Shown: positions 7,194 through 30,915 of the stretch, one piece after another
Layout: every line of letters begins with the position of its first letter
Numbering within the stretch: position 1 is the stretch's first letter
Assembly: GCA_030681615.1 (NCBI GenBank)
Contig: JAUXSA010000095.1
Span: forward strand, 1 to 46,988
Length of the DNA stretch: 46,988 nt
From: Bacteroidota bacterium
GTDB lineage: Bacteria; Bacteroidota; Bacteroidia; B-17B0; Aurantibacillaceae
Direction: 5' to 3'
The notes under the pieces: generated by a model
Database searches by the model: none
What the model was told of the DNA's origin: nothing
Seen by the model: only the letters and a program-made list of their open reading frames with translations
Position numbers and translations under genes: made by a program

Positions 7194-8843
7194 TTACTTC
7201 TTAAGTAAATATCCTTTTTCGAGTGAGATAGTTTCTTTATCGCTTTGTTTAAGAACTATATCTTCGGTGATCTCTTTAAAGCCTTTTTTATTAATGGTCA
7301 ATTTATAATTACCGCCCTTTAATGTAAAAAAGTATTCGCCGTTCTCGTTAGTTGTTGTAGAAGACACTTTTACTCCTGCACCATCTGTTAGAACTACCTC
7401 AACATCGGGCAAGCCGTACCCTTCATAACCATCGCGTACAGTGCCTTTTAAAATACTTAAACCATTACTTTTAATTTTTTTACCGTCTTTTTCAAGAATG
7501 GCGTAATCTTTTAGATCTATTTTGTAAATATCGCTTTCGCCTAATCCACCTGGCCTATCGCTTGATATGTAAGCATATTTAGCATCAGCGCTTAACGTTA
7601 ACTGACCTTCTTTGCCAATAGTATTAATAGGATAACCTACGTTTACAGGGGTGCTCCATTTACCACCTTCGAAAACAGTTTTAAATACATCGTAACTACC
7701 CATACTTCCAGGTCCATCGCTACAAAAGAAAAGTGTTTTGCCATCCGGCGCCAGAAACATCCCTGCTTCATCATAGCTTGTGTTTACTGTAGGCCCAAGG
7801 TTTACAGGTTTGCCATATTCTTTTTTATTTATTTTTTCTACCATGTAAATATCGCTTCGTCCCATACCACCATCGCGCTCGCTAAAGAAAAATAATTTTT
7901 TTCCATCAGGCGAAATACAGGCCCCACCTTCCCAATAGCTTGATGCTACAGGCTTACCAATAGGCTCAGGAGTTTTCCATTTACCGTTATTTATTTTACT
8001 GACAAAAACATCACCACCGCGTGATTCTTTATCCTTAATGTCGTTCTTATAAATAAAAATTTGTTTTCCATCGGGCGAAATACTACTTACCGCATCGTGT
8101 GCTTTCGTATTTACAGAGCCTGGAACCTCAGCTGCTTTAGCAAAGTTCTTAGTTGCAGAATCGTAACCGGCAATATAAATATCTTCAAAATATTTTCCGT
8201 CACCTTCAACATCCACAACTGCGTTAGTGCCTTCAGGGCGGTTAGTTGTAAATACTAATTTAGTTCCATCAGCGGTAAGACAAGGGTTTTTATCGTTGAA
8301 TTTACTGTTGATCTCTGTTCCTAAATTCTCAACAGTAACGTCTAATGGTGCAGTTGTCATGGCCTTTGCGTTTTGCGCTTGCTTTAAATAAAGATCGGCA
8401 TCTTCTGTATTTTCTTTCTCAGGATTTGGAGCTGATTTAAAAGCAGTGATCTCTTCAATAGCTTTATCAAAATTACTTTCCGAATGATAAATTCGTCCAA
8501 GCGTAATGTGTGCTTCAGGTTTTTCTGTAGCGTTAGTTTCGAGGCTTTTTAACAAATATTCTTTTGCTTTATCATTTTGTTTTAAATTAAAATGACAAAA
8601 ACCTATATAATACAATACAGAAGCATTTTTCGGATTATTTTTCTCAACCTCTCGGTAAGTATTAAGTGCGCCAACAAAATCGCCGGCATACATTTTTTGC
8701 TTGGCTATAACTATTTTCGCAGCATCTCCGGCATCGGTAAAGACATTGGTCTTTTTATCCTTTTTGTCTTTGTTTTCTGTTTCGGTTGTTTGAGCAGTTG
8801 ACACTAAAGATAGTGCCATAAATATGATTAAATATTTCTTCAT
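7194..8843 (-). CDS. TPR/PD40/carboxypeptidase-regulatory-like protein, PorE-like without OmpA
   Basis: A 549-residue exported protein. The start was set at the ATG at 8843, where MKKYLIIFMALSLVSTAQ forms a signal peptide; the reading frame remains open eleven codons further upstream. The domain order is TPR repeats (about 40-150), WD40-like PD40 beta-propeller repeats with ISPDGKQIF, LAPDGKTLFF and LSADAKYAYISSDRPGG motifs (about 180-440), then a CarboxypepD_reg-like beta-sandwich (about 465-540). This is the order found in the T9SS protein PorE, but the C-terminal OmpA peptidoglycan-binding domain is absent and the protein ends right after the sandwich. It is a single gene, divergent from the copper-oxygenase gene. 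Confidence 0.85.
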   Translation of the reverse strand: MKKYLIIFMALSLVSTAQTTETENKDKKDKKTNVFTDAGDAAKIVIAKQKMYAGDFVGALNTYREVEKNNPKNASVLYYIGFCHFNLKQNDKAKEYLLKSLETNATEKPEAHITLGRIYHSESNFDKAIEEITAFKSAPNPEKENTEDADLYLKQAQNAKAMTTAPLDVTVENLGTEINSKFNDKNPCLTADGTKLVFTTNRPEGTNAVVDVEGDGKYFEDIYIAGYDSATKNFAKAAEVPGSVNTKAHDAVSSISPDGKQIFIYKNDIKDKESRGGDVFVSKINNGKWKTPEPIGKPVASSYWEGGACISPDGKKLFFFSERDGGMGRSDIYMVEKINKKEYGKPVNLGPTVNTSYDEAGMFLAPDGKTLFFCSDGPGSMGSYDVFKTVFEGGKWSTPVNVGYPINTIGKEGQLTLSADAKYAYISSDRPGGLGESDIYKIDLKDYAILEKDGKKIKSNGLSILKGTVRDGYEGYGLPDVEVVLTDGAGVKVSSTTTNENGEYFFTLKGGNYKLTINKKGFKEITEDIVLKQSDKETISLEKGYLLKK

Positions 8844-8956
8844 AATGTATACTTTGTAACGAAATCTAAAATACAAATAAAATTTTAACGAAGCGTGTTA
8901 TTTTATAGAAAAGTTTTTTTAACTTTACTAGTAAAACCTTATCACAGAAATACTAA

Positions 8957-10567
8957 ATGCCCATGAATTTTAAATTAAAATTGCTTTACAGTATTATGCT
9001 AATGTGCTTTACCACATTAACAGCAGTGGCACAAACATGGGCAGATGATATTGCTCCAATTTTATACTCTAATTGTACAAGTTGCCATCATACCGGTGGT
9101 TTAGCGCCTAATTCATTAATGAGTTATACCGATGCCTATAATTATAGGTCGATGATCAAGACGTATGTTGAATCTAAATACATGCCGCCATGGCCGCCAG
9201 ACGCACAGTACAAACATTTGGCACATGAAAGGGTATTGTCGCCATCCGATATAAACAAGATCAGTCAATGGGTTTCAGGTGGAGGTGTTCAGGGCAATAC
9301 GGCCAATGCGCCAACACCACCAACCTATACAAATAGCTCAACACAGCTAAGCTCTGTAGATTTTACCGGCAAAATGCAGAGTTATATGGTTAATACCGGT
9401 TCTGATCTTTACAGATGTTTTGTTATCAATACGAATTTTAGCGTAGATAAATTTGCGGCAGAAATTGAAGTAAAACCGGGCAATGCAAGCATTGTTCACC
9501 ACGTTTTGGTATTTGAAGATACGACCGCGTTAATAAAACAAAAAGACAGTGCTGATGCCGGCGCCGGCTACACCAGTTTTTTTGGAACCGGCAGTAACGA
9601 TTCGAGATTAGTTGGCGAATGGGTTCCGGGTACTGCGCCAATAAAATTCCCAAGTTTAATGGGTGTTAGATTAAGAAAAAATACAAGAATTATTTTGCAG
9701 ATCCATTATCCAAAAGGAACCTATTTAAAATTAGACAGCACACGTGTTAATATAAAATTTGCCACAAATACTACTTCACCGCTTTTCCGGGAAGTTTTTT
9801 TAGCGCCATTGTTATCAGAAAGTAATCTCATTAATGGGCCGTTAAGTATACCGCCAAACGTTGTAAAAACATTTACCTCAGCGGCCACCATGACCACCAG
9901 TGCCTCTTTGCCTTACCCGGCAATTACATTGTTATCTATAGCGCCGCACATGCATTTGATAGGCGATAAAATGAAAGTTTTTGCACTTGAGAATAGCACA
10001 GCAGATACAATTCCGCTGATCAATATTCCGAAATGGGATTTTAAATGGCAAGGCATTTATAATTTCAGAAATCCTATGAAAATTCCTTTAGGCAGTACCT
10101 TAGTTTGCCAATCTGCTTATGATAACCGCGCGAGTAATTTAAACAATCCTAACTCTCCACCCTTAACAGTAAACCAGGGAGAATCTACCTCTGATGAAAT
10201 GTGCCTGGTATTTTTTGCGTTCACTTATTATTTTCCGGGAGATGAAAATATCATAATAGATAATTCGCCAATTGCAGGTATAAATGAATTACAAAAAGAT
10301 ATTGTAAATACGTTGCAGTTGTTTAATGTTTTTCCAAATCCTGCAAAAAACCAAGCGCAGTTAAGTTATTTTGCGCCGACTAATTATTTAGCAAAAGCTA
10401 AAATTATTAATATAGAAGGCAAGCTTTTAAAAGAATGGCCTGTGAACATGCGTGAAGGATACGGCTCTATACATTTAAATATCGAAGGATTAATTAAAGG
10501 GCAATACTTTTTAACTATCGAAACAAAATCTTTTACTAAAACAAAACAATTTATTATTTATGAATAA
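8957..10567 (+). CDS. secreted cytochrome c / copper type II monooxygenase fusion with T9SS signal
   Basis: A signal peptide (to about residue 25, ...TTLTAVAQ) is followed by a small cytochrome c domain with heme motif CTSCH (Cys40, Cys43, His44) and a conserved MPPWPP segment. Next come two PHM-like copper domains. All candidate copper ligands are present: His181-His182 (VHHVLVFED), His250 (QIHYPKG), His331-x-His333 (PHMHLIG) and Met415 (DEMCLVFF). The last 80 or so residues (FPNPAKNQAQLSY to KQFIIYE) are a T9SS type A sorting domain. It probably acts at the cell surface as a copper oxidoreductase; the substrate is unknown. It overlaps the next cytochrome gene by eight bases. Confidence 0.85.
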   Translation: MPMNFKLKLLYSIMLMCFTTLTAVAQTWADDIAPILYSNCTSCHHTGGLAPNSLMSYTDAYNYRSMIKTYVESKYMPPWPPDAQYKHLAHERVLSPSDINKISQWVSGGGVQGNTANAPTPPTYTNSSTQLSSVDFTGKMQSYMVNTGSDLYRCFVINTNFSVDKFAAEIEVKPGNASIVHHVLVFEDTTALIKQKDSADAGAGYTSFFGTGSNDSRLVGEWVPGTAPIKFPSLMGVRLRKNTRIILQIHYPKGTYLKLDSTRVNIKFATNTTSPLFREVFLAPLLSESNLINGPLSIPPNVVKTFTSAATMTTSASLPYPAITLLSIAPHMHLIGDKMKVFALENSTADTIPLINIPKWDFKWQGIYNFRNPMKIPLGSTLVCQSAYDNRASNLNNPNSPPLTVNQGESTSDEMCLVFFAFTYYFPGDENIIIDNSPIAGINELQKDIVNTLQLFNVFPNPAKNQAQLSYFAPTNYLAKAKIINIEGKLLKEWPVNMREGYGSIHLNIEGLIKGQYFLTIETKSFTKTKQFIIYE

Positions 10568-10931
10568 GATCTCATTTTTATTTACCGGTATATTTATAAT
10601 TGCATTATTAGTTTCTTGCGAGAATAAAATTGGCAAACTGGAACCGAAAACCCCACCTGTTCCTCCATCGGCTTGCGACAGTGTTAAATTTGCCGCTTAC
10701 ATTCATCCGGTTATAATTGCTAATTGCACCAGCAGTGGCTGTCATAATGCGGGCTCAACAAATGGCGATTACACCACTTACGCCGGGGTGTTAGCCAAGG
10801 TTAACGCAAACGGAGCATTTAAAAGCAGAGTGATAAGTGGTGGAACCCCAATGCCGCCTTCAGGAAGACTTGCGCAGGCAAAATTAGACAGTATTCAATG
10901 CTGGTTGGATAAGGGCGCGCCTAATAACTAA
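10560..10931 (+). CDS. cytochrome c-like lipoprotein with CX4CH motif
   Basis: A 123-residue protein with a lipobox ending LLVSC (Cys20) and a compact domain containing CTSSGCH (Cys56, Cys61, His62), a CX4CH heme motif rather than the usual CXXCH. A downstream GTPMPPSGRL supplies a candidate axial methionine, and the C-terminus has the IQCWLDKGAPNN ending common in Bacteroidota and planctomycete lipoprotein cytochromes. It overlaps the copper oxygenase gene by eight bases, so the two are co-translated and it probably exchanges electrons with that enzyme. A strong terminator follows. Confidence 0.85.
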   Translation: MNKISFLFTGIFIIALLVSCENKIGKLEPKTPPVPPSACDSVKFAAYIHPVIIANCTSSGCHNAGSTNGDYTTYAGVLAKVNANGAFKSRVISGGTPMPPSGRLAQAKLDSIQCWLDKGAPNN

Positions 10932-10945
10932 ATAAAAAATTACTC

Positions 10946-10978
10946 AAAAAAAAGCCGCTAAAAATTAGCGGCTTTTTT
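10946..10978. terminator. bidirectional rho-independent terminator
   Basis: A perfect 8-bp stem, GCCGCTAA (10954-10961) and TTAGCGGC (10965-10972), has a 3-base loop and is flanked by an A tract before and a T tract (TTTTTT) after. It works in both orientations and sits between the cytochrome gene and the convergent valS. Confidence 0.95.
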
Positions 10979-10982
10979 AATT

Positions 10983-13628
10983 TTACAACGAAGCCAACTG
11001 CTCTTCGATAGCTTTTATTTTATTTAAAGCATCGCTTTCTTTCTTACGTTCTACTTCAATAATTTCGGGTTTTGCATTAGATACAAAGCGCTCGTTAGAT
11101 AATTTTATTTGCACCGATCTTAAGAAGCCTTTATTGTACTCTAGTTCTTTTGCAAGACGTTCTTTTTCTTCAGCCACATTTATGTTACCTGTAAGTGGAA
11201 CAAAAAACTCTGCATTCATTACCATAAAGCCAAACGCGCCTTCTACTTTATCCTTTGTATAAGAGTATGAAGAAAGATTGGCAAGCTTAATTACAACGCT
11301 ATCAAAGCGCGAGAATTGTTCGCCAACATCTGATCTTTCTTTTACTTCCAGTTTTTCTTTTGGCGAGATATTCTTTTGTTGACGGATATTCCTTACTTGT
11401 GCAACAACTTCTTTCACCACTTCAAAGGCTTGTAATGTTTCTTTGTTCTGCGTGTTTACTGTAGGCCATTCCGCTACAATAATACACTCCATTTCAGCTC
11501 TTTCTTTGGTTAAATGCCAGATCTCTTCTGTAATAAACGGCATCCATGGATGCATGATCTTTAAAAGCGATTCTAAATAATTAATAGTAGCATCAAAAGT
11601 AATTTTATCAATTGGTTGCGCTTTACCATCAACAAATTCGGGTTTAATAACTTCTAAATACCAGGCACAAAAATCATCCCATACTAATTTGTATGTTGCC
11701 ATTAAAGCATCACTCATCCTGTATTTAGAATAATGGTCGTTTATTATTTCTAATTGCTCTGATAAACGATTACTAAACCATTCAATAGCTGTTTTACTTG
11801 CTTCAGGCTGCGAAACGTTAGTGCCCATTTCAAAACCCTGTATCAATCTAAAAGCATTCCAAACTTTATTAGCAAAATTCCTTCCCTGTTCGCAATGGCT
11901 TTCATCAAACAAAATATCGTTACCAGCAGGGGAAGATAATAACAGGCCAACACGCACACCATCTGCGCCATATTTACTTATTAATTCGAGCGGATCGGGA
12001 GAATTACCAAGCTGCTTACTCATTTTTCTGCCTAATTTATCTCTAACAATACCTGTTAAATAAACGTTTGAAAAAGGTTTTAAGCCAGTATATTCTTTTC
12101 CTGCAATTATCATCCTTGCGATCCAGAAAAATAAAATATCCGGACCCGTTACAAGATCGTTAGTTGGATAATAATATTTTAGATCTGCATTTGCTTTTTC
12201 CCATCCGTTCTTAATAATATCCGGATCAAAAACCGTTAAAGGCCACAACCACGAAGAGAACCAGGTATCTAATACGTCTTCGTCCTGTTTAATATCTAGA
12301 AATTTAACCTCAGCATTTTGTTCTTTTAATTTTTCAAATGCTTCTTGTTTAGTTTTGCAAACTACAGTGTTTCCTTTATCATCATACCATGCCGGAATTT
12401 GTTGTCCCCACCATAGCTGGCGGCTAATGCACCAGTCGTGTACATTTTCCATCCAGTGTTTGTATGTATTAATGAATTTTTCAGGGATCAATTTTACATC
12501 ATTGTTTAAAACGGCTTCTAAAGCAGGTTTGCTCATGTCTTCCATTTTTAAGAACCATTGCATACTCAAACGCGGCTCAATTACCGCATCTGTGCGCTCG
12601 CTATAACCAACTTTATTCTTTATCTCTTCAATTTTTTCAACCAAGCCTTGCTCCTGCAGGTCTTTTATAATCTGTTTACGGCAGGCAAACCTATCCATAC
12701 CAACATATGCACCGGCAGCTTCGCTTATCTTTCCATCCTGCGTTAATGCATCAATTACAGGCAATTTGTATTTCTGACCAAGATTAAAGTCGTTAATATC
12801 GTGTGCAGGCGTAACTTTAAGGGCACCGGTACCAAAACTTGCATCAACATATTCATCAAAAATAATTGGCACAACACGATTAACAACAGGTACGATTATA
12901 TTCTTACCTTTTAATTTTGTGTAACGTTCGTCATGAGGATTAACGCATACTGCAGTATCTCCCATTATAGTTTCAGGGCGTGTAGTTGCAACAGTAATAA
13001 ACTCATTTGAGTTCTCAATTTTATATTTTACATATACCAATTTGCTATTGGCCTCTTTATGTATTACCTCTTCATCGCTTACGGCAGTAAGTCCCTGTGG
13101 GTCCCAATTAACCATGCGCACGCCGCGATAGATTTTCTTTTTATTATAAAGGTCAATAAAAACATCAATAACCGCATCGCTTAACTCGGGCTCCATAGTA
13201 AAGCGCGTGCGGCTCCAATCGCAGCTGGCGCCTAAATGTTTTAGCTGTTCTAAAATAATGCCACCATACTTCTCTTTCCAACCCCAGGCATGTTTTAAAA
13301 AGTCTTCGCGTGAAAGATCTGTTTTTTTTATGCCTTGGTCTGCTAATAATTTTACAACTTTAGCTTCAGTGGCAATACTTGCATGGTCGGTGCCGGGCAC
13401 CCAACAGGCGTTGAATCCAAGCATTCGGGCACGGCGGATCAATACATCCTGAATGGTATTATTAAGCATATGCCCCATGTGCAGCACGCCCGTAACATTT
13501 GGTGGCGGGATAACGATGGTGTATGCTTTGCGATGATCGGGAGTTGATTTAAAAAAATTTTTCTCTGTCCAGTACGGATACCACTTGCTTTCAGCTTCCT
13601 GAGGGTTATATGTTTTCGCTATCTCCAT
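10983..13628 (-). CDS. valS: valyl-tRNA synthetase
   Basis: Class I aminoacyl-tRNA synthetase that charges tRNA-Val. The HIGH-type signature is PPPNVTGVLHMGHMLN near residue 40-55; the KMSKS-type motif reads GRKMSKQLGNSPDP. An editing (CP1) domain carries TTRPETIMGDTAV and GTGALKVTPAHD, there is an anticodon-binding helical domain, and a C-terminal coiled coil (about 815-881) is typical of ValRS. The 881 residues match the family. It is a single gene ending at the shared terminator. A TATTTTTG box (13670-13663 on the minus strand) is a plausible -7 element. Confidence 0.97.
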   Translation of the reverse strand: MEIAKTYNPQEAESKWYPYWTEKNFFKSTPDHRKAYTIVIPPPNVTGVLHMGHMLNNTIQDVLIRRARMLGFNACWVPGTDHASIATEAKVVKLLADQGIKKTDLSREDFLKHAWGWKEKYGGIILEQLKHLGASCDWSRTRFTMEPELSDAVIDVFIDLYNKKKIYRGVRMVNWDPQGLTAVSDEEVIHKEANSKLVYVKYKIENSNEFITVATTRPETIMGDTAVCVNPHDERYTKLKGKNIIVPVVNRVVPIIFDEYVDASFGTGALKVTPAHDINDFNLGQKYKLPVIDALTQDGKISEAAGAYVGMDRFACRKQIIKDLQEQGLVEKIEEIKNKVGYSERTDAVIEPRLSMQWFLKMEDMSKPALEAVLNNDVKLIPEKFINTYKHWMENVHDWCISRQLWWGQQIPAWYDDKGNTVVCKTKQEAFEKLKEQNAEVKFLDIKQDEDVLDTWFSSWLWPLTVFDPDIIKNGWEKANADLKYYYPTNDLVTGPDILFFWIARMIIAGKEYTGLKPFSNVYLTGIVRDKLGRKMSKQLGNSPDPLELISKYGADGVRVGLLLSSPAGNDILFDESHCEQGRNFANKVWNAFRLIQGFEMGTNVSQPEASKTAIEWFSNRLSEQLEIINDHYSKYRMSDALMATYKLVWDDFCAWYLEVIKPEFVDGKAQPIDKITFDATINYLESLLKIMHPWMPFITEEIWHLTKERAEMECIIVAEWPTVNTQNKETLQAFEVVKEVVAQVRNIRQQKNISPKEKLEVKERSDVGEQFSRFDSVVIKLANLSSYSYTKDKVEGAFGFMVMNAEFFVPLTGNINVAEEKERLAKELEYNKGFLRSVQIKLSNERFVSNAKPEIIEVERKKESDALNKIKAIEEQLASL

Positions 13629-23767: not shown

Positions 23768-23839
23768 TTAAAACATTACAATACTTTTTTTCTCATTTAA
23801 TTTTATTTGTTTAACTTGGGTGAGTTAATACAATCAACT

Positions 23840-26734
23840 GTGAAAAATAAATTATTAAAATTATTGCTGCCGGCATTTATTTTTGTTGGCATAAAAAGCT
23901 TTGGTGCTTTTGATAAACCTAAAACATTATTTGAAGAAAACAAAGGGCAGGTGGTTAATGCCGATGGTGTTGTTTTAAACGACGTGTTGTTTCGCGCCAA
24001 CTTGCCGGGAGCATGTATCTGGATAACAGAGAATGGTATTGTTTATAATTTTTATAAAGAAAATAAAAGCAAGAGTGCTGAACCAGGTAAAAAACCTGTA
24101 ACCGAAAGTGTTGATTGGTATCGTAGTGTTATGAATCTAAAGAACGCACGCATCTCTTCAAAAAACTTAACGCCGTTAAAACAAGTTGCTTTTCACTATA
24201 ATTATCAAAAAGCAAATAGTCCGGTTATTGAAACAAATTTATTTGAAGAAGTTCTTTTTTCGAATGTATATGAAGGTATTGACTGGCGCTTGTATATGGA
24301 GAATGGCCTTATTAAACAGGAATTCATAGTAAAACCTTTTGCTAATGCCAACCTTATTGATTTGGATTATACAACTACCGGCGACCTTGATATTAAAGAT
24401 ACAAAGATCTCTTTTTCAAATCCGGTTGGTATTTTTACGGAAGGAGATCTTTATTGTTACCAAGGCTCAAAGAATAAGAGTGTAAAAGCAAAATACAGTT
24501 CAACACAACAGTTTAAAACTATAAATGAAACTAAAATTTACACGCATCACGTAAAAATAGAAACTGCAGATTTTGATCATAGTAAAACATTAGTAATTGA
24601 TCCGATATTAGATTGGTCTACTTTTTATGGTGGAGGCAATGATGAGGACGGAAACGCTATATATAATGATGGCACCAATACCTGGGTTGCGGGACACACC
24701 CTTTCTGTCAACTTTCCTACCAACGATCCCGGTTTACCCACTTATTTTCAGGGCAGCAACGCCGGCGGTTTTGGCGATTGCTTTATTTTAAAATTTAATA
24801 ACCTTGGTAATTTAATTTGGGCAACTTATTTTGGCGGCACAGCAAGCGAAGAAGCAACAGCTATATATAGTAATGGTACCAACTTATGGGTAGCTGGTTA
24901 CACAGGTTCTATTGATTTTCCGTTATTAGACCCAGGAAGCGGCGCATATTTTTCGGGAACAAATGCAGGAACCGCAGATTGTTTTATTTCTAAATTTAAT
25001 GTTGCGGGTACACTTTTATGGAGCACTTATTTTGGTGGTATTACCAACGATAATATTAGTGCCATACATGTAAATAATAACGAATTATTTGTTGGAGGCA
25101 CAAGCGATTCGCCCAATTTCCCGGTATTGAATTCAGGAAATTATTTTCAAAATTATAATGCAGGTAACGATGGTTTTATTTTGAAATTTGGCGCAACAAA
25201 TAATCTTATCTGGTCAACTTTTTTAGCCGGGAGCGGAAATGATCTTATAAGTAGTATACAAACAAACAGTACCAGTTTGTTTATTGGAGGTTATACCAAT
25301 TCTACCGATTTTGTTACACTTAATGCAAGCACTTATTTTCAGGGCACTGTTGCAGGAACCTATGATTGTTTTGTTTCTAAATTTACTTTAAATGGTGCTT
25401 TAAACTGGTCTACTTATTTTGGCGGAAACGCGCATGATAGACTCAATGGATTAACTTTAAGTAATGATGCTTTGTGGCTAACAGGCACTACCAGCTCAAC
25501 CAACATGCCTCTTTTTAATCCCGGCGGATCGAGCTTTAATCAAACAACTAATAATGGTTTTAGTGATGGTTTTGTGTCAAAATTTAGTTTAGGAGGCACC
25601 CTACAATCATCTACTTATTATGGCGGTAACTTTAGTGACTTTTTAACCAGCATTGCCTGTGATGGAAAAAATGTTTTTGTTGGCGGTTATACAAATTCAA
25701 CAAATTTATTTACGCAAAACCCCGGCATAAGCGGTTATTACCAAAATGCCAGTGCTGGGTTTAATGATGGTATTTTATTAAAATTCGATACTGCCTCTGC
25801 CTGCAAATGGGCAAGTTATTATGGTCATGGTTCAAATGATTATATACTTGCAATGGCTTGTAATGGCAGCAAGATCTTTGCAACAGGTTATACTCAATCT
25901 TTCTTTTTGCCAACGTTAAATACAGGTTTTGGTTGTTATTATCAATCAGGAAATGCAACCGGCTTAGATTGTTTTATTACAACATTTAAGAACTGTACGA
26001 GTCCAAGTTTAACCATAACAAACTCTGCCCCATGTACCGGAAACCCACTCAATTTTTCTGTTAATAGTTATCCTGGCGCTACTTACATGTGGTTTGGACC
26101 TTTGGGCTTTAATTCTTCTTTACAAAGTCCAACAATACCTAATGTTACAACTGCTAACTCCGGCAATTATTCATTGATCGTAAATATTCCTAATGGCTGC
26201 GCTAATTCGGCGTTGGTAAGTTTAACGGTTAATCCTCAAGCAACTGTAACGGTAGCCGGTAGTGCAACTATTTGCTCAGGAAGCGCCATAAATTTATCGG
26301 CTGGCAGCGCACAGCAATATTTCTGGCAAGGCCCAAACAGTTATACTTCAAATGTACAAAATCCTGCCATACCCAATGCAGCCACCATCCATACAGGTTA
26401 TTATGTTGTGAAAGGTTATGATTCTAATAATTGTTACAAAGAAGATTCGGTTCATGTATTGGTAAATTTATGTACGGGAATAAACGAAATAAATAATTCT
26501 GCTTCTATTTTTACCTATCCTAATCCAAGCAAAAACATTTTATATGTAGAAGGAATGAATTCTAATTATGATAATGTAATTGTAACAATTATTGATGCGC
26601 AAGGAAAAAAAGTGCGCACCGAACCCTTAAAAAAAGAAATTAATATCTCCGAATTACCTACAGGAATATACGTAGTTAATATAATTTCCGGACATAAAAT
26701 TCTGTTGAGTCAAAAGGTCATCAAAGAAAATTAA
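23840..26734 (+). CDS. T9SS type A cargo protein: DUF7948-like domain plus seven SBBP repeats
   Basis: A 964-residue surface or secreted protein. The GTG at 23840 gives a clean signal peptide (VKNKLLKLLLPAFIFVGIKSFGA); a TTG at 23807 is the upstream alternative. Residues about 30-240 (ENKGQVVN...LFRANLPGACIWITENGIVYNF) look like the DUF7948 domain. Seven SBBP repeats follow (about 257-700), each with a WSTYFGG-like motif and a DCFI-KF strand, consistent with one seven-bladed beta-propeller. Then come one or two Ig-like domains (about 720-880) and a T9SS type A signal (YPNPSKNILYVEG...GIYVVNIISG). Its role is probably adhesion or matrix; the substrate is unknown. Confidence 0.85.
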   Translation: MKNKLLKLLLPAFIFVGIKSFGAFDKPKTLFEENKGQVVNADGVVLNDVLFRANLPGACIWITENGIVYNFYKENKSKSAEPGKKPVTESVDWYRSVMNLKNARISSKNLTPLKQVAFHYNYQKANSPVIETNLFEEVLFSNVYEGIDWRLYMENGLIKQEFIVKPFANANLIDLDYTTTGDLDIKDTKISFSNPVGIFTEGDLYCYQGSKNKSVKAKYSSTQQFKTINETKIYTHHVKIETADFDHSKTLVIDPILDWSTFYGGGNDEDGNAIYNDGTNTWVAGHTLSVNFPTNDPGLPTYFQGSNAGGFGDCFILKFNNLGNLIWATYFGGTASEEATAIYSNGTNLWVAGYTGSIDFPLLDPGSGAYFSGTNAGTADCFISKFNVAGTLLWSTYFGGITNDNISAIHVNNNELFVGGTSDSPNFPVLNSGNYFQNYNAGNDGFILKFGATNNLIWSTFLAGSGNDLISSIQTNSTSLFIGGYTNSTDFVTLNASTYFQGTVAGTYDCFVSKFTLNGALNWSTYFGGNAHDRLNGLTLSNDALWLTGTTSSTNMPLFNPGGSSFNQTTNNGFSDGFVSKFSLGGTLQSSTYYGGNFSDFLTSIACDGKNVFVGGYTNSTNLFTQNPGISGYYQNASAGFNDGILLKFDTASACKWASYYGHGSNDYILAMACNGSKIFATGYTQSFFLPTLNTGFGCYYQSGNATGLDCFITTFKNCTSPSLTITNSAPCTGNPLNFSVNSYPGATYMWFGPLGFNSSLQSPTIPNVTTANSGNYSLIVNIPNGCANSALVSLTVNPQATVTVAGSATICSGSAINLSAGSAQQYFWQGPNSYTSNVQNPAIPNAATIHTGYYVVKGYDSNNCYKEDSVHVLVNLCTGINEINNSASIFTYPNPSKNILYVEGMNSNYDNVIVTIIDAQGKKVRTEPLKKEINISELPTGIYVVNIISGHKILLSQKVIKEN

Positions 26735-27072
26735 TTTATTTTTTTGATCAGGGTTTTTCTGATATCTAATTTGATTTAGAATAATTCTGGGAAATTTTTT
26801 CCCCAGTCGCCGGATCTTGAAACCCTTATAAACAAAGAGCTGTAAGCTTTATTAACAAAATGTGAAGCGTTTGTTAATAACGTTTTATGCTTTCAGAACT
26901 CAAAATTAAATCTTTGATCAAATGAGTGAGAACTTACTTTGACTTAGTGAAAAAACAACCTTCTTTTAAAAGATTGTGCTATTTTTATGGAAGATATTAA
27001 GGCTAATTTTTGTTAACTTACGTATCTAAGAACAAAAGCTAGCTTGTTAATCGAATCTAAAAATTATTGCTT
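26735..27072. other. 338-base intergenic region with inverted repeats
   Basis: No credible ORF is seen. It holds a hairpin CTGGGAAA/TTCCCCAG (26788-26807, one mismatch, loop TTTT) 53 bases after the SBBP gene, which may help end its transcript although no T run follows. It also holds a perfect 11-bp inverted repeat at 26849-26880, annotated separately, and AT-rich sequence leading to the PKD gene. Confidence 0.6.
26849..26880. repeat. perfect 11-bp inverted repeat upstream of the PKD gene
   Basis: TTATTAACAAA (26849-26859) and TTTGTTAATAA (26870-26880) are exact inverted copies with a 10-base spacer. They lie 193 bases before the start of the PKD protein gene. Low GC makes it a poor terminator and it has no T run. 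An operator for a dimeric regulator or an mRNA leader hairpin are possible readings. Confidence 0.6.
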
Positions 27073-30000
27073 ATGAAATATTTTACACGCAACCGATCTA
27101 TTTTTTTGTGCCTCCTCTTCTTAATGAGTTTGCACAATCAATTAAACTCGCACTCTGTGCAAATTGCATACTGTGTTGATTGTAATGGTAACTTAAGGAT
27201 ATTTGTTGAGCATTGGCATGGTACCGCCAACCCAAACACAACAAACATGACGATCAGTTTGAATGTGAACAACAATGTTACTACTCAAACACAATCCCCT
27301 GCCTTTGGTTTAATTAACGTTCCGTTTAGCCAATTACCAGGTTGTGTTACACCTATTACCTCGGTTGCCGGTTGCCCAGGATCAATGAATACATATAATG
27401 ATTGGGTAGTTTATGACTACGTTGGTTTACCTCCAAATGTGCCAATTGCTTTTACAATTATAAGTGGTAATAACTCCTTTACATCTGATGGTTGTGGTAT
27501 GTATCCTTTGACTGTTAACTTTACTATTCCCGGATCAATAACCAGCGGCACACCTGTTACAGTTTGCGCAGGTGCGCAAACAGCTGCTATCCCTGTACCC
27601 GTGGGCACCAACTGGACAAACACTAACCCTGGCATTGGTTTACCTGCAAATGGTACAGGTCCAATTCCACCGTTTACAGCTACAGGCCCGGCAGTAGGTG
27701 TAATTAGTTATACAAATTCATGTGGTGTTAATAATACAACCATCAACGTTGTTCCTTCTATTGTATCCAGCTTTAACAATAATTCAGGTCCCGGGGGTGT
27801 TTGCTTAGGCACTGCTGTTGCTTTTAACAACACATCGCCAAATTCAACAACCTGGCAATGGAATTTTGGAAACGCTGCCACATCTAATTTACAAAATCCA
27901 ACCTATGTTTATCCTGCGCCGGGCACATATACCGTTTCATTGACAGTCTCCAGCGGAACCGCCTCCTGTCCTGGCACAAGCACACAAGTAGTCGTCGTCA
28001 ACCCCATTCCTGTTCCTGCATTTACACTAACGCCAACCTGCGCAAATACACCAACCGTTTCAATTATTAATGGATCTATGATCCAAACGGGAACTATGGG
28101 CTATCAGTGGACCATGACCGGGGCAAACCCAAATACGTCTACACTTCCTGCACCTGTAATAACATATCCTGCAGCAGGTAATTATAATGTAAATCTTTTA
28201 CTTACATCTGTTGCTGGTTGCACAGCTACATTAACAAAAACAGTTGCTATTTTTCCAAAACCAACCATTTCGTTTACTGCTAACCCGGTTTGCAGAGGCT
28301 TTGCCAGTGTATTTGTAAATACTAGTAATGTTGCAGCGCCAAGTACCATCACTAACTGGTTCTGGGATTTTAATAATGATAATATTACCGATAATACAAC
28401 CATAGCACCTAATAATACATTTGCTACAGAAGGTGTTTATCCCGTAGAATTAAAAGGATTAACAGGAAATGGCTGTAGAGATTCTTTGCTTGTGAATATT
28501 ACTGTACACGCAACACCAACAGTTGCTTTTAATCCAATAAATAATTGTGCAAATACAAATATTTTATTGAACAATACATCTTCTATTAATCCCCCATCAA
28601 CAATTAATACTTTTGCCTGGAGCTTTGGTGCCAATGCAACCCCGCTTACAAGTAATGTAAGCTCTCCACCAAGCTTATCTTATAGCACACCAGGTATAAA
28701 AACAATTACTTTAGCCCTTACAAGTAATAACAGTTGTACAGCTACGGCTACAAGAACAGTGCAAGTGTATGCATCACCAACGGCTACATTTAATGCCAAC
28801 TCTGTTTGCTCTGGCGTTATAACTACATTTACAGATGCATCAACACCTGTAGGACAAATTACAAACTGGGATTGGGACTTTGATAACAACACAACAATCG
28901 ATGCTACTACCCAAAATCCTACTAATTTATTTCCTTCATCAGGAAATCACATTATAAACCTGATCGTCACTTCTAACAACGGTTGTAAAGATACGCTCAC
29001 GAAAACAATATCTGTTTTTGGAAGGGCTGTTATTGATTTTGGTCCAACCGCTGTATGTTTTAACACGCCAACAGCTTTTACAAATTCTACCTCTACAACC
29101 GTTAATGCAAATACGGGAAGTATTAATAATTCGCTTTGGTTGTTCGGTGACCCCGCAGCTGGCACTTCAACGCTTCAAAATCCTATTTATACTTACACCA
29201 ATGTAGCAAATAGTACAGTTACTACTGTTTACCAGGCAACATTATATGTAACAACTTCCAACGGTTGTAAAGATTCCTTAACAAAACCTGTAACGGTTTA
29301 CAGTATACCAACTGCAGACTTTACTGCAGATTCTGTTTGTTTAGGCTCACCAACACATTTATCAAATGCTGCTAATAATAATGGGCTTCCATTCTTTTTA
29401 TTCGCATGGGATTTTAACGGCGATAATATTTCAGATCTTAATGCAATACCTGCAACTCATATTTTTCCAACATCCGGAAATAACCCTGTAACGTATACGG
29501 TTTTCACTTCCCCTAATGGCGGTTTGTTAACCTGTCCTCATAAGATCACTAAAAACGTTTGGGTTCACCCAACACCTGTTGCTGCCATCACACACACTAA
29601 CAGGTGTGTTGATCTTCAACCAAATTTAATGAATGGTGTGAACTCTACACTTGCCGTTGGAACTATAACCAATTATGCATGGGATTACGGTAATGGAAAT
29701 ACAAATTTAACCAATCCTTTATCACCCACTTCTTTCAGCTATAATGCTGCGGGCAATTATGTTGTAACTTTAACTGTAACCTCAATGGCTGGCTGCGTGC
29801 ACACGGCTACACAAACCGTTGAAGTTTGGGAAAGACCTTATGCTAATTTTTCTTATAGTAAAGTATGCGCCGGAAAACAAACAAAAGTAAAAGGTAATCA
29901 GCTGTCTACCAGTGCTCCCATAGTTACTTACCAGTGGGATATGAATAATACATTATCATCAATTGAAACTACCGGTGCCCTGGTAAACTATACTTTTACC

Positions 30001-30915
30001 AATGGAGGCTTACAGCCTATTAATTTAATTGCAATATCAGATAAAGGTTGTGTAAACACATTTCCTGGAAATATCTATATTAACTATAACCCTAAACCGA
30101 ATTTTTATGCGCCTAAACGTGCTGGTTGTACTGATCTTTGTATTTCCATCTTTGATAGCACTGCGGTTTTAACCGGGCCTGCAAAAAATTCAGATTGGGA
30201 ATGGGATTTTGGAAACAATCTTACCAACATTAGTAACCAGCCAAACACTCAGTTCACCTGCTTCACAAACTCTTCTAATACAATGATCCAGAATTATAGT
30301 TTAAAATTAATTGTAAGAACGGATAGCGGCTGCGTTGACTCTGTGAAGAAAGAAAAATATGTTAAGGTTTATCCAAAGCCACACGCAAATTTTGATTGGA
30401 AGGGTCAAAGCGGTGATCTGTTAACGCCATATATTGCTTTCCAAAATACTTCAATCGGTTATAATAGTTTCCATTGGTACTATAGTGATGGTGTTAATAT
30501 AACAGATTCTGTAAATCAACATCCGGTGCATTATTACAATACTGATATTCCGCGTGATTTTAATGTTTTTCTTGCTGTAAGGAACCAATATGGCTGTAAA
30601 GATACAATTAACAAGTATGTTGAGATCGGACCTGAATATACATTCTATATACCGAACACATTTACACCAAATGATGATGGCGCCAACGAAACATTTACTG
30701 GCACTGGTATTGGTATTAAAGGATATAAAATGTGGATCTACGACCGTTGGGGTGAGAAATTATATTATACAGAAGACATTAATAAAGGTTGGGATGGTAG
30801 TGTAAAAGGCATACAGGATAAAGATAAAGTAGATGTTTATACCTATAGGGCAATTGTTACCGATCTGTGGAATAAAGAACATGAATATGTTGGACATGTT
30901 ACTCTTCTTAAATAA
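27073..30915 (+). CDS. large PKD-repeat protein with T9SS type B (gliding-motility-associated) C-terminus
   Basis: A 1280-residue exported protein starting at ATG 27073 (the preceding in-frame TTG at 27067 is less likely), with signal peptide KYFTRNRSIFLCLLFLMSLHNQLNS. A unique N-terminal domain (about 25-160) has several Cys. About eleven PKD-like repeats of 85-100 residues follow, each with a W-x-W/F-D-F-G/N motif and a terminal ...GC. The last 90 or so residues (FYIPNTFTPNDDGANETF; WIYDRWGEKLYY; GWDG; YVGHVTLLK) are the CHU_C/T9SS type B sorting domain. It is a likely surface adhesin or matrix protein. Confidence 0.92.
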   Translation: MKYFTRNRSIFLCLLFLMSLHNQLNSHSVQIAYCVDCNGNLRIFVEHWHGTANPNTTNMTISLNVNNNVTTQTQSPAFGLINVPFSQLPGCVTPITSVAGCPGSMNTYNDWVVYDYVGLPPNVPIAFTIISGNNSFTSDGCGMYPLTVNFTIPGSITSGTPVTVCAGAQTAAIPVPVGTNWTNTNPGIGLPANGTGPIPPFTATGPAVGVISYTNSCGVNNTTINVVPSIVSSFNNNSGPGGVCLGTAVAFNNTSPNSTTWQWNFGNAATSNLQNPTYVYPAPGTYTVSLTVSSGTASCPGTSTQVVVVNPIPVPAFTLTPTCANTPTVSIINGSMIQTGTMGYQWTMTGANPNTSTLPAPVITYPAAGNYNVNLLLTSVAGCTATLTKTVAIFPKPTISFTANPVCRGFASVFVNTSNVAAPSTITNWFWDFNNDNITDNTTIAPNNTFATEGVYPVELKGLTGNGCRDSLLVNITVHATPTVAFNPINNCANTNILLNNTSSINPPSTINTFAWSFGANATPLTSNVSSPPSLSYSTPGIKTITLALTSNNSCTATATRTVQVYASPTATFNANSVCSGVITTFTDASTPVGQITNWDWDFDNNTTIDATTQNPTNLFPSSGNHIINLIVTSNNGCKDTLTKTISVFGRAVIDFGPTAVCFNTPTAFTNSTSTTVNANTGSINNSLWLFGDPAAGTSTLQNPIYTYTNVANSTVTTVYQATLYVTTSNGCKDSLTKPVTVYSIPTADFTADSVCLGSPTHLSNAANNNGLPFFLFAWDFNGDNISDLNAIPATHIFPTSGNNPVTYTVFTSPNGGLLTCPHKITKNVWVHPTPVAAITHTNRCVDLQPNLMNGVNSTLAVGTITNYAWDYGNGNTNLTNPLSPTSFSYNAAGNYVVTLTVTSMAGCVHTATQTVEVWERPYANFSYSKVCAGKQTKVKGNQLSTSAPIVTYQWDMNNTLSSIETTGALVNYTFTNGGLQPINLIAISDKGCVNTFPGNIYINYNPKPNFYAPKRAGCTDLCISIFDSTAVLTGPAKNSDWEWDFGNNLTNISNQPNTQFTCFTNSSNTMIQNYSLKLIVRTDSGCVDSVKKEKYVKVYPKPHANFDWKGQSGDLLTPYIAFQNTSIGYNSFHWYYSDGVNITDSVNQHPVHYYNTDIPRDFNVFLAVRNQYGCKDTINKYVEIGPEYTFYIPNTFTPNDDGANETFTGTGIGIKGYKMWIYDRWGEKLYYTEDINKGWDGSVKGIQDKDKVDVYTYRAIVTDLWNKEHEYVGHVTLLK

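Follow-up and report, generated by a model that had tools for sequence, protein, structure and literature searches.

Organization of the P0001–P0002 locus

The DNA analyzed here, referred to as the window, is a stretch of 46,988 nucleotides from a Bacteroidota bacterium (contig JAUXSA010000095.1 of assembly GCA_030681615.1). We focused on two of its genes, P0001 and P0002. P0001 encodes a protein that joins a c-type heme domain, a copper domain resembling those of PHM and DBH, and a sorting domain for the type IX secretion system (T9SS) in a single chain, and P0002 encodes a small lipoprotein with a heme motif of its own. The animal relatives of the P0001 fold make amidated peptide hormones and noradrenaline, using vitamin C, and the results below bear on how a bacterial enzyme of this kind may be supplied with electrons.

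In the open reading frame (ORF) list of the window, the P0001 and P0002 frames share 8 bases, and the genes flanking the pair lie on the opposite strand on both sides (7194–8876 and 10983–13628). The two genes appear to form one unit, with a hairpin and T-run located after P0002. At gathering scores, Rfam had no match anywhere in the window. The features of the locus, all on the forward strand, are as follows:

8957..10567, + strand: P0001, cytochrome c – PHM-like dicopper monooxygenase – T9SS type A sorting domain (536 amino acids, ATG start)
8957..9034, + strand: likely signal peptide, residues 1–26 (assigned by eye from the hydrophobic stretch to AVAQ; helix at 5–22 in the model)
9035..9277, + strand: monoheme cytochrome c domain, about residues 27–107 (CxxCH and conserved Met76; model of the domain alone)
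9074..9088, + strand: heme-attachment motif CTSCH, residues 40–44 (sequence, conservation)
9182..9184, + strand: Met76, candidate axial heme ligand in an MPPW motif (conservation among the named relatives defined below)
9350..9766, + strand: CuH domain, about residues 132–270, with His181, His182 and His250 (profile alignment, fold, conservation)
9788..10243, + strand: CuM domain, about residues 278–429, with His331, His333 and Met415 (Pfam, profile alignment, fold, conservation)
10313..10564, + strand: T9SS type A C-terminal sorting domain, about residues 453–536 (Pfam, NCBIfam, fold match to mirolase)
10560..10931, + strand: P0002, monoheme lipoprotein (123 amino acids, ATG start; lipobox LVSC by eye)
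10725..10745, + strand: heme motif CX4CH (CTSSGCH), P0002 residues 56–62 (sequence)
10954..10978, + strand: hairpin and T-run, likely terminator 3' of P0002 (by eye; not listed by a consensus terminator scan)

An earlier, sequence-only reading of this DNA had assigned a CTSCH heme motif and six copper ligands to the first protein, and translation shows the motif and places each of the ligands at exactly the residue number it gave. The same reading had described the second gene as a heme lipoprotein overlapping the first by eight bases. The ORFs bear this out, with the motif being CX4CH, not CxxCH.

P0001 contains a dicopper core of the PHM/DBH type

The C-terminal copper domain of P0001 is recognized directly by Pfam: Cu2_monoox_C (PF03712) matches residues 297–422 with 37.7 bits, above the cut-off of 23. 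Since the Pfam scores of the N-terminal copper domain and of the cytochrome domain are sub-threshold (given below), these two domains were tested by other means. A profile of 66 family members, A2, was searched against all PDB sequences with hmmsearch. The best match was DBH (E 1.9e-8), followed by PHM entries from E 5.5e-8. The family motifs VHH, QiHY, HmH and dEM aligned onto VHH, QVHY, HTH and DEM of PHM, and the six ligand positions are in register in both PHM rows printed, while the DBH row printed stops before the Met. We take His242, His244 and Met314 to be the CuM ligands of PHM. The CuH site of PHM consists of His107, His108 and His172, according to mutants described in PMC6123673. 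Given the alignment with the PHM motifs (E 5.5e-8) and the presence of the ligands in all 80 relatives described below, the copper assignment is not due to chance. Additionally, Cys154 of the CuH domain (window 9416–9418) is kept in 57 of the 66 members, and the copper domains of the window protein have no second conserved cysteine.

An AlphaFold2 model of P0001 built from the A2 alignment has a mean pLDDT of 91.1 and a pTM of 0.77. When the model was compared with the PDB by Foldseek, the first 31 rows consisted entirely of PHM and DBH chains, with E values from 1.2e-15 to 8.2e-12, and the row after this block was another protein at E 1.6e-7. VIA-align to PHM gave Z scores of 18.5–23.0 over about residues 132–429, with 15–17% identity in the aligned core, and alignment to DBH chain A gave Z 22.3 over 302 residues with a root-mean-square deviation (rmsd) of 3.5. 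The lowest rmsd among the PHM rows, 2.6–2.7, belongs to citrate forms of PHM mutants, whose Z scores are within 1 of several others, and we do not read this closeness in the predicted model further. By profile alignment and predicted fold, about residues 132–429 are confirmed as a PHM/DBH-type dicopper core. The PHM-like copper module of the sequence-only reading therefore stands, and its appeal to a structural model did not count against it: by sequence alignment the ligands fall on PHM positions within what is predicted to be a PHM-like fold.

The sorting domain, which the same reading had proposed, is equally clear. Por_Secre_tail matches residues 458–534 above the Pfam cut-off, the NCBIfam model TIGR04183 (T9SS sorting domain) is also above cut-off, and VIA-align places residues 453–535 on the mirolase sorting domain 8qb1 with Z 11.8 and an rmsd of 1.6 over 77 residues. 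In cut-off scores and fold this domain is the same as that of T9SS type A cargo. Structural matches to LPMO (GbpA, 2xwx, 8gul) cover only about residues 448–536, the sorting domain, and an LPMO identity was dropped. Our literature search turned up no T9SS cargo described as joining heme with PHM-like copper domains. Within the window's own genome, a search for SprA among the T9SS components returned SprA_N at E 1.1e-158, and there are two Cytochrom_C_asm matches, one of them interrupted by stops. A T9SS route and the attachment of heme c are thus likely to be available. Tail-less members of the family also exist, among them a lipoprotein copy in the same genome, which indicates that T9SS export is one branch and not the essence of the family.

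The fused N-terminal domain is a likely monoheme cytochrome c

Folded alone, the heme domain of P0001 gave a pLDDT of 82.6. Its best three matches in VIA-align are all heme c proteins: PccH, with Z 7.4 and an rmsd of 1.7 over 73 residues, followed by hydrazine synthase (Z 5.4) and domain 3 of PgcA (Z 3.3). A cytochrome c fold for the N-terminal domain is likely on the strength of this model.

P0001 can be set against its animal counterparts. With rat PHM (PDB 1PHM) it has in common the two-domain copper core, the six ligands in register and the fold, to which it adds the fused c-type heme domain and the T9SS tail. A Pfam search limited to P0001 itself matched no amidating-lyase (PAL) domain. 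With DBH, TBH and MOXD it shares the copper core and the presence of an extra domain N-terminal to CuH. In DBH this extra domain is DOMON, which has the cytochrome fold of cellobiose dehydrogenase without the heme ligands and for which a regulatory role has been proposed, as described in PMC4846438. Where DBH has this heme-less DOMON domain, P0001 has a c-type heme motif and a conserved Met, and DOMON has no Pfam match in P0001 at E values up to 1.

The heme–copper combination is conserved across Bacteroidota

Genome contigs scanned with A1 yielded at least 579 confirmed relatives among 591 candidate stretches, and the best 80 of these are referred to as the named relatives. By record title they belong to the Bacteroidota, including one Candidatus Kapaibacterium, which NCBI assigns to this phylum, and one (L075) is labelled just "bacterium". 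Counted without motif pre-selection, all six copper ligands are kept in 80 of 80. The sequence-only reading would have been contradicted by orthologues lacking copper ligands, and this search returned none among the named relatives. Met76 is likewise kept in 80 of 80, and Trp79 in 77, with Phe in the other 3. CxxCH is present in 79 of the 79 named relatives whose sequence reaches that far; of the two patterns in the A1 scan, one includes the heme motif. A match with an E value of 1e-10 or lower occurs in 84 of 87 genomes from the order to which the window belongs, its own genome among them. Of the aligned order members, whose ORFs were pre-selected by CxxCH, 31 of 31 retain the heme motif, Met76 and the copper ligands, as does a paralogue from the window's own genome.

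To remove the heme bias, we used the copper domain alone (PF03712) as bait in 392 genomes sampled over the phylum. Matches were found in 36 of these, a number that is not the frequency of the family, since the search is insensitive and, the window's own genome apart, many members lie near the cut-off. In 28 of the 29 new loci examined for heme, the frame that encodes the copper core also encodes a c-heme motif on its N-terminal side. These motifs are of two kinds. The window's kind, CxxCH followed by MPP, occurs in 15 of the 29 loci, and a second kind, with MPL replacing MPP, in 13 (CX4CH in 9, CxxCH in 4). Each of the 12 second-kind proteins printed has a lipoprotein-like start, as judged by eye. 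The CX4CH loci of the second kind (CATSGCH and similar) are L120, L121, L126, L127, L129, L133, L139, L141 and L144. A phylum frequency of "201 of 392" from an alignment search, in which 3 candidates were scored per genome, was discarded; most of the rows shown match the T9SS tail alone, and because this tail swamps the search the figure is no count of the family.

Thus, the PHM-like core of Bacteroidota nearly always carries a c-type heme motif, and P0001 represents one branch within a large family of bacterial proteins, not a special case. The sequence-only interpretation is partly supported: it was right in kind and too narrow in scope. In plasmid and phage collections, the single match was a replicon of Nonomuraea gerenzanensis, with none in phages. 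Judging by titles and the opening of abstracts, none of the papers found deals with a bacterial member, which is weak evidence of absence given open-access coverage. Those that mention PF03712, PF01082 or the Pfam description deal, by title, with animals, one fungus or a prediction method, and the accessible part of PMC6529398 does not mention bacteria.

P0002 is a related heme lipoprotein paired with P0001 in one genus

The P0002 family is homologous to the heme domain of P0001 (hhalign E 4.2e-13), and it also matches the second-kind heme domain (E 1.1e-11). The heme-domain alignment against the single P0002 sequence gave E 9e-7. Spacing of the heme motif varies among P0002 orthologues, with CX4CH, CX2CH (L009) and CX5CH (L008) all represented. 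The last of these, L008:3047–3439, carries the heme-like motif CALGTGCH, an unusual spacing with putative heme binding.

The sequence-only reading had asked whether the two genes co-occur across Bacteroidota. Among orthologues of at least 59% identity, window included and all from one genus, P0002 adjoins the copper gene in 8 of 9 (G000, G034, G026, G012, G015, G024, G033 and G009), overlapping it in each according to the ORF listings. The pairing therefore belongs to a single clade of that genus and not to the wider family. Other P0002 matches in the 80 named loci lie at a distance from the copper gene: 1.5 kb in L045, 7.8 kb in L062 and 6.1 kb in L086, the latter within a 459-amino-acid frame. 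The window's own genome has three further P0002 relatives, all on contig C149. One cluster on this contig (L038:4958–10627) contains two P0002-like heme lipoproteins, a DHOR di-heme oxidoreductase and a Rieske protein, together with a T9SS-tailed CHRD protein with four repeats.

A proposed heme-fed monooxygenase at the cell surface

From the computed domains, ligands, fold, conservation and gene pairing we infer a mechanism that concerns heme and copper occupancy, the direction of electron flow, P0002 as donor, hydroxylation and an extracellular substrate. With somewhat more confidence than doubt, we favor a reading of P0001 as a dicopper monooxygenase with the PHM/DBH fold that is secreted to the cell surface, with its own heme electron feed replacing ascorbate. 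P0001 would be made with its signal peptide and have heme c attached at CTSCH in the periplasm. Copper would be bound at CuH (His181, His182, His250) and CuM (His331, His333, Met415), and the folded protein would exit via the type IX system through its C-terminal domain. The respiratory chain would supply the fused heme with electrons singly; in the window's clade, co-expressed P0002 would probably relay them. The fused heme would hand these electrons to CuH, and CuM could then activate O2 for hydroxylation of a C–H bond of an extracellular substrate, probably one other than peptidyl-glycine. Heme would thereby fill the role of ascorbate in PHM and DBH.

The heme as one-electron donor for CuH is the most economical account of these data. 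That cytochromes might stand in for ascorbate was already part of the sequence-only reading, and the idea, still an inference, is strengthened by the near-constant co-occurrence of a c-heme motif and a PHM-like domain in Bacteroidota. In cellobiose dehydrogenase (CDH) and LPMO systems, a heme domain feeds single electrons to a secreted copper monooxygenase; the likeness to P0001 is in logic alone, and the copper enzyme differs.

Several observations weigh against this reading. Two of the domains score below their Pfam cut-offs: Cu2_monooxygen (PF01082, N-terminal) reaches 26.1 bits at residues 139–252 with a cut-off of 30, and Cytochrome_CBB3 reaches 20.8 bits at residues 33–89 with a cut-off of 27. 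Support for the fold of the heme domain is modest, at a VIA-align Z of 7.4 at most and a best Foldseek E of 1.1. The conservation of CxxCH in the 80 named relatives is partly a product of selection because one search pattern contains that motif. One of the 29 loci found with PF03712, L140, has no heme-motif ORF of at least 60 amino acids within 3.3 kb, and its PHM-like protein begins with a lipoprotein-like signal of its own. Additionally, the PHM-like ORF on the replicon of the actinomycete N. gerenzanensis has no CxxCH. Heme is therefore not strictly required by PHM-like cores. Lastly, P0002 does not adjoin the copper gene in G010 nor in more distant members, and it cannot be essential to the enzyme; a clade-specific extra relay is the sensible reading of P0002.

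Alternative explanations

Electrons could instead flow in the reverse direction. The copper centre would then oxidise an outside substrate or metal and pass electrons to the heme and the respiratory chain, which would make P0001 a surface dehydrogenase or an electron-uptake protein. PccH, which ranks first among the structural matches of the heme domain, is a Geobacter sulfurreducens monoheme cytochrome linked to electron uptake, and the window's own genome has related heme lipoproteins near the di-heme oxidoreductase and Rieske protein mentioned above. However, both PHM copper sites are intact in 80 of 80 relatives, as O2-activating monooxygenation needs, and the best-matching solved relatives are monooxygenases. 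We consider reverse flow unlikely.

Slightly less probable again is a role in copper capture and delivery, in which the PHM-like domain would pass copper to respiratory oxidases, with the heme as a redox switch and without catalysis. What speaks for this role comes from a second neighbor sample, made up of 17 loci whose copies are tail-less or paralogous (L037, L178–L193). One of these, L037:9102–11134 on contig C54 of the window's own genome, is a tail-less lipoprotein cytochrome–PHM paralogue located directly after a DUF420 gene. A DUF420 gene lies near the copy in 5 of the 17 loci, adjoining it in L037, L190 and L192 (overlapping in the latter two) and at 0.7 kb in L188 and 2.0 kb in L186. 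A redoxin is beside or fused to the copy in 7 of the 17: directly before the cytochrome–PHM gene in five (L179, L180, L181, L183, L184), on the other strand in L178, and fused N-terminally in L185 (E 5e-20), giving a redoxin–cytochrome–PHM protein. L178–L181, L183 and L184 are part of the seed of the redoxin profile, and L185 is outside it. DUF420 and Sco-like proteins serve oxidase assembly. On the other hand, the T9SS branch has an export signal that would lead it away from the oxidases, neither a DUF420 nor a redoxin gene neighbors the window copy, and two intact PHM-like sites exceed the needs of a chaperone.

Of comparably low probability is an ordinary ascorbate- or quinol-dependent PHM-like monooxygenase whose heme is a sensor or a structural part. 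Heme-less cores do exist, in L140 and Nonomuraea, and other reductants must therefore serve some PHM-like cores. Yet a heme motif, of two kinds, occurs in 28 of 29 phylum loci, and in the window's kind it is accompanied by a conserved Met.

The weakest alternative is a peptide-amidating enzyme with true PHM function. We take Arg240 and Asn316 of PHM to be the anchors of the peptide carboxylate. In 66 aligned members, with the correspondence read from the PHM alignment, the Arg240 and Asn316 positions hold Arg or Asn in none, and the Tyr318 position holds Tyr in 49 and Phe in 17. The PHM fold and copper sites are shared and the Tyr318 position does not speak against amidation, but because the Arg240 and Asn316 positions are never Arg or Asn we regard this function as very improbable.

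Returning to the heme-fed monooxygenase, the proposal can be widened, though here our confidence falls somewhat short of even. The PHM-type enzymes of Bacteroidota may form a large class of self-sufficient heme–dicopper enzymes in which a c-type cytochrome of two kinds replaces ascorbate and couples C–H hydroxylation outside the cell to the respiratory chain; T9SS would send the window's branch to the surface, and a lipoprotein would give it a second heme relay. If the proposal is true, it would offer a testable answer to how PHM-like enzymes outside animals are supplied with electrons, with the donor domain covalently attached, and, as a model for PHM and DBH, a bacterial enzyme whose heme reports on electron movement between the two copper sites. 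It would also mean that a class of oxidative enzyme is deployed at the Bacteroidota surface.

Gene neighborhoods and other features of the window

Neighbors of the 80 named loci were surveyed using ORFs of at least 80 amino acids and an E value of 1e-5. In 8 of 80 (L046, L053, L079, L088, L093, L095, L097, L099), the gene immediately upstream, in the same orientation, encodes a fatty-acid hydroxylase, an identity for which one member was tested as PF04116. At L085:9194–11575, a 793-amino-acid frame fuses a PF04116 hydroxylase to the PHM–T9SS protein with the heme motif between them, and no other fatty-acid-hydroxylase match was found in the 80 loci. Five of the 80 (L106, L111, L112, L117, L118) have a redoxin no more than about 215 bases away, and two others (L086, L087) have one at 5–7 kb. 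L106 and L112 come from Hymenobacter, and their copies look T9SS-tailed by eye. None of the fatty-acid hydroxylase, redoxin or DUF420 neighbors is found among the nearest genes of the window copy, and for this reason we draw no substrate from neighbors. A clue to the substrate from the neighborhood was rejected, as the loci give no single answer.

Redoxins preceding tail-less cytochrome–PHM genes have a C-terminal GC motif. Relatives with a redoxin–cytochrome–PHM layout may also occur in Planctomycetes or Acidobacteria. Around some of the tail-less or paralogous copies, SusC/SusD-, regulator- and haloperoxidase-like genes were named by eye. Elsewhere in the window, two further large proteins carry T9SS signals: one at 23807–26734, with DUF7948 and Por_Secre_tail, and one at 27067–30915, with PKD repeats and a CHU_C signal.

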